The notes beneath the pieces were generated by a model. That model did not search any database. It saw nothing but the letters and a program-made list of their open reading frames with translations, and was not told where the DNA came from. A DNA stretch of 34,116 bases. Origin: Alphaproteobacteria bacterium (GTDB lineage Bacteria; Pseudomonadota; Alphaproteobacteria; Puniceispirillales; UBA1172). Of the stretch, positions 25,220 to 28,867 are shown piece by piece. Location of the stretch: the NCBI GenBank assembly GCA_016778985.1, contig JADHOM010000024.1, positions 1 to 34,116 on the forward strand. The letters run 5' to 3'. The translations under genes were made by a program, and so were the position numbers. The first letter of the stretch is position 1, and each line of letters starts with the position of its first letter.

Positions 25220-26836
25220 ATGAAACAAGCAGATTTTATCGTTATTGGTGCTGGTTCAGCGGGCTGCGTTTTGGCCAATCGGCTGACTGCAGACGGAAAA
25301 ACATCTGTCATCTTGATTGAGGCTGGCGGCGAAGATCGCCACCCCTTTATCCACTTGCCTGTTGGCTATGTCAAAACTATGGTCAATCCTGCTGTCAACT
25401 GGATGTTCAAGTCTGAGCCCGAAGCCGGCACCCATAATCGAAGCATTGATATGCCACGCGGCAAGGTTCTTGGCGGATCATCATCTATCAATGGAATGAT
25501 TTATGTGCGTGGGCAAAGTCATGATTATGATCAGTGGGCGCAAAGTGGCAATAAAGGGTGGAGCTATCAAGATGTTCTGCCCTACTTCAAGAAAAGTGAG
25601 TGTTTTGAAGGTATAACAAAAAAAACGGCTAATCCTGAATGGCGTGGTGGTGATGGGCCTTTGCATGTTCAGCATGTCCGCGAACATTACACCGCGATGG
25701 ATAAGATTCTGGAAAGTGCCCGTGCCGAAGGCTGGCCAACAAATGCTGATTATAATGGTGATGATCAGGAAGGATTTGCCTATGCTCAGACAACCATGCG
25801 CAATGGGCTGCGCTGGTCAACCAAGAAAGCCTATCTGAACCCTGCCCGCAAGCGGCCTAATCTGCATGTCATTAGCCGCGCTATGGCGACTGGCTTGGTC
25901 ATGGACGGTAAGACAGTAACCGGCGTTAACATATCGCAAGACGGTAAAAAACAAACCCTGACCGCCAATGCGGAGGTGATTTTATCAGCCGGAGCGTTCC
26001 AATCGCCGCAATTGCTAGAGCTATCAGGTATTGGTGATCATGATATCCTGTCACAATATGGCATTGAAACCACCCATCATCTGCCCGCCATTGGCAGGCA
26101 TTTGCAAGACCATTATATCTCTCGCCTATCGTGGAAATTGCGTGATCTGCCATCGTTAAACAGCAAGACACGCGGCATCGGGCTTGCTGGCGAAATATTA
26201 AAGTTCATTGGCAATCGCCGCGGTGCTCTGACCATGCCAGCAGGGATAATCATGGGTTTTATTAAAAGCCGTGCTGAATTATTAGGCCCAGATATTCAAT
26301 ATCATATTGCCAATGCCAGCTATGCCAATCCTGCTAAACGTATTTTTGACCGTTTCCCTGGCCTGACTATTGGCCCTTGTCAGCTGCGTCCTGAAAGTCG
26401 GGGGTCTGTCCATATCCGCTCAGCTGATCCATTTGCCCCGCCTGCTATTCGCATGAATTACCTGGATACAGCAGAAGACCAGCGTGTGCATCTGGCGGCG
26501 GTGCGAATGGCACGGAAAATCATGGAAAATGATGTCATGAAACCATATGTCATTGATGAATTGCGGCCAGGCAAAATCGTTGATAGTGATGATGAATTGC
26601 TGGATTATGTGCGGCAAACAGGCGTCACGTTATATCACCCTGTATCGACATGTCGGATGGGCGAAAATGCCAAAATCAACGTGGTTGATGATCGTCTGCG
26701 GGTTCATGGACTTTCGGGTATTCGCGTTGTTGATGCGTCTATCATGCCTAGTTTAGTATCTGGCAATACCAATGCTGCAACTATCATGATTGCCGAAAAA
26801 GCCAGCGATATGATTCTTGCTGATTTGAAACGCTGA
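25220..26836 (+). CDS. GMC-family oxidoreductase (choline-dehydrogenase-like)
   Basis: The enzyme is an FAD-dependent alcohol dehydrogenase or oxidase of the glucose-methanol-choline family. The 538-residue protein begins with the FAD motif [13 protein letters not shown] (about 9-21), then the family signature [19 protein letters not shown] (near 83-101) and [16 protein letters not shown] (second signature). The catalytic pair is His473 in [11 protein letters not shown] and an Asn (516 or 518) in [11 protein letters not shown]. It looks most like bacterial choline dehydrogenase-type paralogues, but these act on many alcohols, and no betaine aldehyde dehydrogenase or bet regulator is nearby, so betA is not claimed. 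GGA lies 7 bases before the ATG. It is followed after 34 bases by the YdhS-like FAD protein. Confidence 0.93.
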
Positions 26837-26870: not shown

Positions 26871-28343
26871 ATGATGTCGACTCAATCTGGCTCACCAATT
26901 GTGATTATCGGGGATGGCTACGCCGCCGCGGTTTTGCTCATCCATTTGGCACGCCGAGGTGTTAATTTATCCTCTGTCAGGGTCATTGGCGATGCAGCTT
27001 TGGAGACGGGAGCTTTGGAGACGGGAGCTTTGGAGACGGGAGCTTTGGAGACGGGGGCTTTGGAGACGGGAGCTTTGGCGGTTTCAGCATTGGGGAGAGG
27101 CGCGGCATACGGCACTCATCATCCGCATTTCCGGCTCAATGTGCGTGATGACCTGATGGTTATTGATCAAGATTATCCAAATGATTTTGTTGATTGGGCA
27201 AAACAGCTTAATGACCCTGCGGCAACAGATCAGGCTGGCGCTGGTCAGTTTTATCGGCGCAGTGATTTTGCCAGTTATCTGGCTGGGCAATTAGCTAAAC
27301 ATAACATTATGAATGAGATAACATCACTTAGCGCTAAAGCCACTCACATAACACCAAATAAAAACAATAAAACCAGCTATTTATGGGATGTTACCCTCAA
27401 TGATGGCAGCACCGTTATGGCAGGGCATGTGATCTTGGCAACCGGCAATCCGCCACCGCAAGGCCAGCATCTCATTGCTGATAATGTGTCTCTAGATATC
27501 CAACATGAGCGTATTATTGATCAGCCGTGGAAAGGTGATGCAGTTGACCAAATCCCGCCATATGCGCATGTCGGGATCATTGGCGGCGGGTTAACGGCAC
27601 TTGATGCCTGTTTTGCGCTTTATGAAAATAGCCATCATGGGCAAATCACCGTGATCACCCCGAAAGGACTACTACCGCCACAGCAGAGCGCATGGAAAGA
27701 CGTTGATATGCCGCCCTTCCCTGACGCTCTGACGGCATCAAAGTTTATTCAGCATATGCGGAGATATTTGCCCGATAGGGATTGGACAACACCTGAATGG
27801 CAATCTGCTTTTGAGGGTATGAGAGCGCAATTAACTGATGGCTGGCAACGCCTTCCTGATAAGGATAAGCCGCGATTAATGCGGCGTTTTGGCTGGCTTT
27901 GGTCACTGATACGGTATCGCGCCTGTCCACAAACACAACGCGCTGTTCATGCTATGAGGAAGGCTGGCCAGATGCAGATTATTGCTGATCGCGTCAATCA
28001 AATTAAAGCCGCCATGAGTGATGCTGTGTCGCCTACACCGCCACCACTAATGCTAGTGATGCAAAGCCATGATGATTTGGCTTGCGATCATGTGATCCTT
28101 GCCGCCGGCGTTGGCCAAGATGCGCTGATTAAGCAATTAAAAAACAGTCATATTGCTGGGGTTTTGGCAAATGGTGGTATTAATGTTAGTGATCAATTGC
28201 AATTGCTTGCGCCTGATGGCAACCCCCAACCGCAATTATGGGTGTTAGGGCCGCCAACGCAATTTGCGTTAGGTGATGTTGTTGGCGCGACATCCACCGC
28301 GAAACAAGCTGCTAGACTGGCTGATCAGCTTGCGTCATTATAA
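26871..28343 (+). CDS. YdhS-like FAD/NAD(P)-binding protein with pentapeptide repeat insert
   Basis: The 490-residue product resembles the uncharacterised YdhS-like (COG4529) flavoproteins. The N-terminal nucleotide-binding segment is IVIIGDGYAAAVLL, where the last glycine of the usual GxGxxG is Ala. After it come LGRGAAYGTHHPHFRLNVRDD and YRRSDFASYLAG, typical of the family, and a second Rossmann motif HVGIIGGGLTALDACFALY (near 236-254). Between strand 2 and GRGAAYG lies an unusual run of five ALETG-type units (about 43-67) encoded by a 15-bp tandem repeat. The reaction is unknown. It starts 34 bases after the GMC gene and ends 4 bases before the cysteine-cluster gene, so all three are likely one operon. 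Two ATGs stand in tandem at the start. Confidence 0.85.
   Translation: MMSTQSGSPIVIIGDGYAAAVLLIHLARRGVNLSSVRVIGDAALETGALETGALETGALETGALETGALAVSALGRGAAYGTHHPHFRLNVRDDLMVIDQDYPNDFVDWAKQLNDPAATDQAGAGQFYRRSDFASYLAGQLAKHNIMNEITSLSAKATHITPNKNNKTSYLWDVTLNDGSTVMAGHVILATGNPPPQGQHLIADNVSLDIQHERIIDQPWKGDAVDQIPPYAHVGIIGGGLTALDACFALYENSHHGQITVITPKGLLPPQQSAWKDVDMPPFPDALTASKFIQHMRRYLPDRDWTTPEWQSAFEGMRAQLTDGWQRLPDKDKPRLMRRFGWLWSLIRYRACPQTQRAVHAMRKAGQMQIIADRVNQIKAAMSDAVSPTPPPLMLVMQSHDDLACDHVILAAGVGQDALIKQLKNSHIAGVLANGGINVSDQLQLLAPDGNPQPQLWVLGPPTQFALGDVVGATSTAKQAARLADQLASL
26996..27070 (+). repeat. Tandem 15-bp repeat, five copies, in frame
   Basis: The unit AGCTTTGGAGACGGG is repeated five times head to tail. 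Copies one to four are identical and copy five differs by one base (GG for AG at its start). The first 8 bases of a sixth copy follow (27071-27078). Because the unit is 15 bases the reading frame of the host gene is kept and reads as Leu-Glu-Thr-Gly-Ala units. Near-identity of the copies suggests recent expansion by slippage or recombination. Confidence 0.97.
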
Positions 28344-28347
28344 CGCC

Positions 28348-28803
28348 ATGTCAGATAGTGATCCGTTCTGGAAAATAAAATCTTTATCGCAAATGACGCC
28401 TGATGAATGGGAAAGCTTATGTGATGGATGCGGCAAATGTTGTCTGATTAAACTGCAAGACATTGATACAGGCGAATATCATTATACGGATGTTGGCTGT
28501 ACGTTGCTTGATCAATCAACATGCCGATGCAAAGACTACGCAAATCGCAAGGCCATCGTGCCAGATTGCGTTATTCTGAAACCGCATACGCTTGATCAAA
28601 TCCCCTGGATGCCTGACAGTTGTTCGTATCGACTGCTCTATGAAGGCAAGACCTTACCGACATGGCATCCATTAGTGACAGGTGATCAGATGAGCACGCA
28701 TCATGCTGATCAATCGGTGGCAGGCAAAATCATTTCTGAGGATCATGTTGATGAAGAGGACTTGCCATCCCATATAAAGGATTGGTCACATTATAATGGG
28801 TAA
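28348..28803 (+). CDS. YcgN-type cysteine cluster protein (UPF0260)
   Basis: The product belongs to the YcgN/UPF0260 family of small cysteine-rich proteins thought to bind metal, of unknown function. From the ATG at 28348 it has 151 residues, near family length. A longer frame starts inside the previous gene and adds 25 residues that do not fit. The cysteines are Cys25, Cys28, Cys31 and Cys32 (CDGCGKCC), then Cys51, Cys59 and Cys61, Cys74, and Cys92. Other family blocks are FWKIKSLSQMTPDEWESLCDG, IPWMPDSCSYRLL and the acidic ending near DEEDLP. It begins 4 bases after the FAD protein stop, with no clear ribosome-binding site, so it is probably coupled to it. Confidence 0.9.
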   Translation: MSDSDPFWKIKSLSQMTPDEWESLCDGCGKCCLIKLQDIDTGEYHYTDVGCTLLDQSTCRCKDYANRKAIVPDCVILKPHTLDQIPWMPDSCSYRLLYEGKTLPTWHPLVTGDQMSTHHADQSVAGKIISEDHVDEEDLPSHIKDWSHYNG

Positions 28804-28810
28804 TATGGCT

Positions 28811-28867
28811 AGATAACTGGCAATACCCCAGATAACTGGCAATATCCCAGATAACTGGCAAAATCTA
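28811..28867. repeat. Three tandem 19-bp direct repeats, intergenic
   Basis: The unit AGATAACTGGCAATACCCC starts at 28811, 28830 and 28849. The second copy differs by one or two bases and the third matches only over its first 13 bases or so. The array sits just after the cysteine-cluster gene and 33 bases before a small ORF. The spacing of 19 bases is nearly two helical turns, so proteins bound to each copy would lie on about the same face. Role is unknown. Confidence 0.9.

Follow-up and report, generated by a model that had tools for sequence, protein, structure and literature searches.

The flavoprotein gene at 26871–28343 (forward strand) of the window, the 34,116-nucleotide stretch of DNA that was analysed, contains an in-frame coding minisatellite. 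It probably arose from an in-place duplication, by slippage-driven, frame-filtered and near-neutral growth of a loop at a tolerant site. The window belongs to G000, a 2.1-Mb draft genome in 43 contigs from a marine alphaproteobacterium of the SAR116 cluster. The best match in the species collection is the SAR116-cluster MAG MED595 (L032), which also carries the flavoprotein gene.

TRF reported the array at 26996–27078 with a period of 15, 5.5 copies, 97% match and a score of 159, by far the highest of any tandem repeat in the window. TRF and codon reading together place five near-perfect units at 26997–27071 (forward strand), which encode ALETG five times as residues 43–67. The codons are GCT TTG GAG ACG GGA in each unit, and a silent GGG ending in copy 4 is the sole difference among the five. 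This confirms the five near-perfect in-frame 15-bp copies described in an earlier, sequence-only reading of this DNA. They are followed on the same strand by a degenerate sixth unit, GCT TTG GCG GTT TCA (27072–27086; ALAVS, residues 68–72), with 9 of 15 bases identical to the consensus unit, and then by the conserved ALGRG codons (27087–27101; residues 73–77), with AAYG next. When the sixth unit is included, the length added relative to the family is 30 residues (43–72), rather than the about 25 given earlier. No array scoring 50 or more appeared when some 400 kb of the G000 genome were put through first-order Markov shuffles, so the 15-bp array is far beyond chance. We considered whether the tract is a segment of a pentapeptide-repeat protein (PF00805) and rejected this, as the tract has no Pfam match at E values up to 10 and does not follow the A(D/N)LXX pattern; its Ala immediately precedes Leu instead of standing two residues earlier.

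The gene product is a 490-residue FAD/NAD(P)-binding flavoprotein, assigned from its open reading frame and the Pfam profile PF13454 (NAD_binding_9). In the profile search it scored 72.3 bits, which passes the curated cut-off of 21.8, and PF13454 is matched by 19 of 19 aligned orthologues. The N-terminal dinucleotide-binding motif of the FAD domain, IVIIGDGYAAA (26898–26930, forward strand), is intact in the orthologue alignment, and its G14 and G16 are invariant across the 19 orthologues. The earlier description of the protein as YdhS-like holds at the level of the PF13454 domain but not over the full length, as the best BLASTP match to E. coli YdhS has E = 0.016 over 32 residues. YdhS orthology was rejected, since the full-length similarity is very weak and the Pfam domains alone are shared. 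Searches of PDB sequences with the flavoprotein returned distant FAD/NAD proteins only, with the loop covered by no match, and searches of viral contigs with the array and the protein as queries found nothing.

Profile matches and synteny identify the upstream neighbour as a GMC oxidoreductase (choline dehydrogenase-like; 25220–26836) and the downstream neighbour as a YcgN-family cysteine-cluster protein (28348–28803), both on the forward strand. The gene order aminotransferase, SDR, GMC oxidoreductase, flavoprotein, YcgN and flavin reductase is common to G002, the sister species, and to G001 and G006. In G003 the block from aminotransferase to flavin reductase is divided between two contigs, parts of it are visible in shorter stretches of G007 and G008, and the stretch read around the flavoprotein gene in G009 has no GMC match. 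Since the gene order around the flavoprotein is kept, the genes compared here are positional orthologues and not chance paralogues. The complete genome of G004, from the same genus, gave no flavoprotein match at E ≤ 0.001, and the gene thus seems to be dispensable within the genus. Directly past the YcgN stop codon (28803) lies a second array of the window, 28811–28861, with a 19-bp unit in 2.7 copies (96%). It was not found by TRF in G002, where a 14-bp array of three copies occurs nearby instead (L032:6152–6193).

The loop of the G000 protein reads VIG-DA-[ALETG]5-ALAVS-[ALGRG]-AAYG. In G002, whose protein is 86% identical in amino acid sequence, it reads VIG-DA-ALEAG-ALKMG-ALEAE-[ALGRG]-AAYG, with three diverged units at the identical site that add 15 residues, 45 bp less than in G000. 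The genus members that have the loop region of the gene, G001, G003 and G006, contain no unit besides the conserved xLGxG. Nearly all orthologues of the order lack the tract and follow the pattern [VIF]xG-xx-[xLGxG]-xAYG. In these relatives 4–5 residues separate the end of the second strand from GxG, and E. coli YdhS is alike, so that the loop is indeed normally short in the family, as the sequence-only reading had said; the strands are assigned from what is generally known of the Rossmann-type FAD domain in this family. Comparison of orthologues, which the sequence-only reading had proposed, shows that copy number is not identical among relatives, with five units and one degenerate unit here, three in G002 and none in the other genus members. 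The tract is therefore a coding minisatellite (VNTR) both in its head-to-tail units of high identity (15 bp × 5.5, 97%) and in a copy number that differs between relatives. The G009 orthologue (L014) is an exception to the tractless pattern, with an unrelated, non-repetitive 10-residue insert at the position of the ALETG tract and the loop VFGDTPPENIPNENVSLGSGKAYG. In the G008 orthologue (L021) a different loop (alignment columns 201–230) contains a separate in-frame repeat of a tetrapeptide, WNTG ×3, so repeats have been gained more than once in the flavoprotein family.

The diverged units at the matching site in G002 also bear on the assembly, as G000 is in 43 draft contigs and an assembler can miscount a tandem array of 75–83 bp. 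An artefact that inflated or otherwise falsified the copy number is nevertheless very improbable. Besides the units in the sister genome, copy 4 carries its own base, the array is found nowhere else in the G000 genome, and the frame and both syntenic flanks are intact. The existence of the array is hardly in doubt, although the exact count of units could be off.

The sequence-only reading missed the match between the unit and the conserved (A)LGxG codons beside it; these codons are present once per relative as xLGxG or xFGxG. In the protein alignment each extra pentapeptide keeps the register of the conserved (A)LGxG that precedes AAYG. With the register fixed in this way, the consensus unit and the ALGRG codons are identical at 10 of 15 bases, while the remaining 448 in-frame 15-mers of the gene reach a maximum of 9 of 15 with the unit. 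The G002 units are identical to the G000 unit at 12–13 of 15 bases, but to the ALGRG codons of G002 at only 7–8 of 15. These alignments make the ALGxG codons the probable parent of the repeat unit. Because the 10/15 identity is modest and the value in G002 is only 7–8/15, this parentage is likely rather than proven.

Outside the tract, the gene has dS = 0.33 and dN = 0.067 between G000 and G002. The dN/dS of 0.20 indicates that the protein is kept under purifying selection, with the tract, in both species. Because both carry units at one site, the array in some form is older than their split. The five near-identical copies are probably younger, since one difference is seen among them, while about 12 would be expected if they had separated before the split and were unconstrained. 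Restricted to synonymous sites, this evidence of recency is weak (P about 0.16). The claim that the expansion was recent is thus borne out by one difference among five units against a dS of 0.33 to G002.

In both species all units retain the Ala and Leu codons. This may point to constraint within the tract, but the sample is tiny. We considered whether the loop is selected, with the ALETG tract maintained for an effect of its length on cofactor access, on substrate range or on a protein contact, and with copy number acting to tune that effect. The preserved Ala-Leu, the position of the tract next to the conserved GxGxAY block of the FAD domain and the independent 10-residue insert of G009 at the identical site all agree with this explanation. 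However, the G002 units have diverged at residues 3–5 (EAG, KMG and EAE), all orthologues besides those of G000 and G002 manage without the tract, and G004, a member of the same genus, has no match to the protein at all. Furthermore, many unrelated genes of the genus carry similar arrays. We regard a selected loop as unlikely, and none of our observations reveals an effect of the tract.

The frequency of similar arrays was estimated with TRF on sampled stretches, taken either as the initial 20 kb of a contig or as 20-kb pieces at even spacing, with open frames of at least 150 residues standing in for genes. The estimated densities of in-frame 12- and 15-bp arrays per 100 kb are 4.4 (G000), 5.8 (G002) and 4.8 (G004) within one genus, and 1.0 (G007), 2.8 (G016) and 1.5 (G022) in three other genera of the order. 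For G000 and G002 together, the period is divisible by 3 in 43 of 48 arrays within long frames, and in 15 of 39 outside such frames. Two further in-frame 15-bp arrays of G000 are shorter in G002, one with KSQLV/KSQSV units (L054:10490–10558) by 45 bp and one with ESSAR units (L060:4332–4376) by 30 bp. Copy number is thus unequal between the sister species in 3 of 3 arrays tested. More in-frame arrays, of 12 or 24 bp, occur in long open frames of G000 at L058:15435–15486 (IRHG), L066:9829–9864 (ETTG), L057:17074–17129 (ENAP/ENAS), L055:324–386 (QANS) and L065:16200–16255 (FLVA). The commonness of such arrays across the genus is another feature that the sequence-only reading did not record. The ALETG array is an unremarkable case of a familiar type, in a genus apparently rich in such arrays. 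In a literature search, one paper contained both SAR116 and tandem repeats, with each term mentioned once, and a SAR116 phylogenomics paper does not discuss repeats (PMC8547437).

The unit is G-rich and another short array lies close by (28811–28861), as might be expected if the array were a DNA-level element, such as a binding site, a structure or a small mobile repeat, that is in frame by chance. The single strands, however, fold no better than shuffled sequences (z = 0.87 and −0.27), and a DNA hairpin as the cause was rejected on this result. There is no second genomic copy save one unit-length match with 2 mismatches, and a reversed control pattern also yields one; no array was found among 60 relatives. 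Thus, we give a DNA-level element almost no credence.

Because similar arrays are common across the genus, neutral slippage is the default explanation, and we propose the following sequence of events for the ALETG tract. A 15-bp block, most probably the (A)LGxG codons, would have been tandemly duplicated in the common ancestor of G000 and G002, and the units of the array would then have drifted apart. Subsequently, the G000 lineage would have re-amplified one drifted unit to five near-identical copies, via slippage or unequal exchange. Since the unit length is divisible by three and the loop would be tolerant of insertion, each step would remain in frame and close to neutral, while steps that broke the frame within coding sequence would be purged by selection. 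We infer that slippage was the molecular step, that the tract is nearly neutral and that the loop is exposed at the surface. An AlphaFold2 model from a two-sequence alignment had a mean pLDDT of 35.5, too poor to use.

In-frame coding VNTRs are best known from surface-protein genes and typing loci. The ALETG array resembles bacterial coding minisatellites in being tandem and in frame, with near-identical units and a copy number that varies between relatives. Surface proteins of S. aureus, for example, contain variable segments that are in frame (PMC2884548). Unlike the surface-protein VNTRs, the array is in a flavoprotein without any sign of surface location, and it was compared here between species, with one genome each. 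The flavoprotein shares with PF13454 proteins, including E. coli YdhS, the FAD-domain motifs and a GxG block that follows the second strand at the same place, but differs from them in the 30 extra loop residues before GxG. Phase-variable contingency loci likewise have an intragenic tandem repeat prone to copy change. By contrast, the 15-bp ALETG unit lies inside the open reading frame and keeps the frame when copies change, which rules out on/off switching of the gene by this unit. We rejected such a locus as an explanation, in agreement with the earlier remark that this repeat differs from the usual out-of-frame kind.

For the flavoprotein gene itself, nothing points to a new function. The finding is rather a small, clear example of a conserved codon block that has probably given rise, by in-frame copying, to a new loop and has later been amplified again; relatives still preserve the intermediates. 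More tentatively, and with the odds somewhat against it, this SAR116 genus may have a raised rate of 12–15-bp tandem duplication, filtered by frame, that steadily supplies new loop segments to ordinary enzymes. The flavoprotein would then be a case in which the stages can be read in living relatives: no tract, three old units, and five fresh units with one old. Should whole genomes confirm the genus-wide excess of 12- and 15-bp arrays, this would suggest a mutational habit peculiar to the lineage, within an abundant marine clade.
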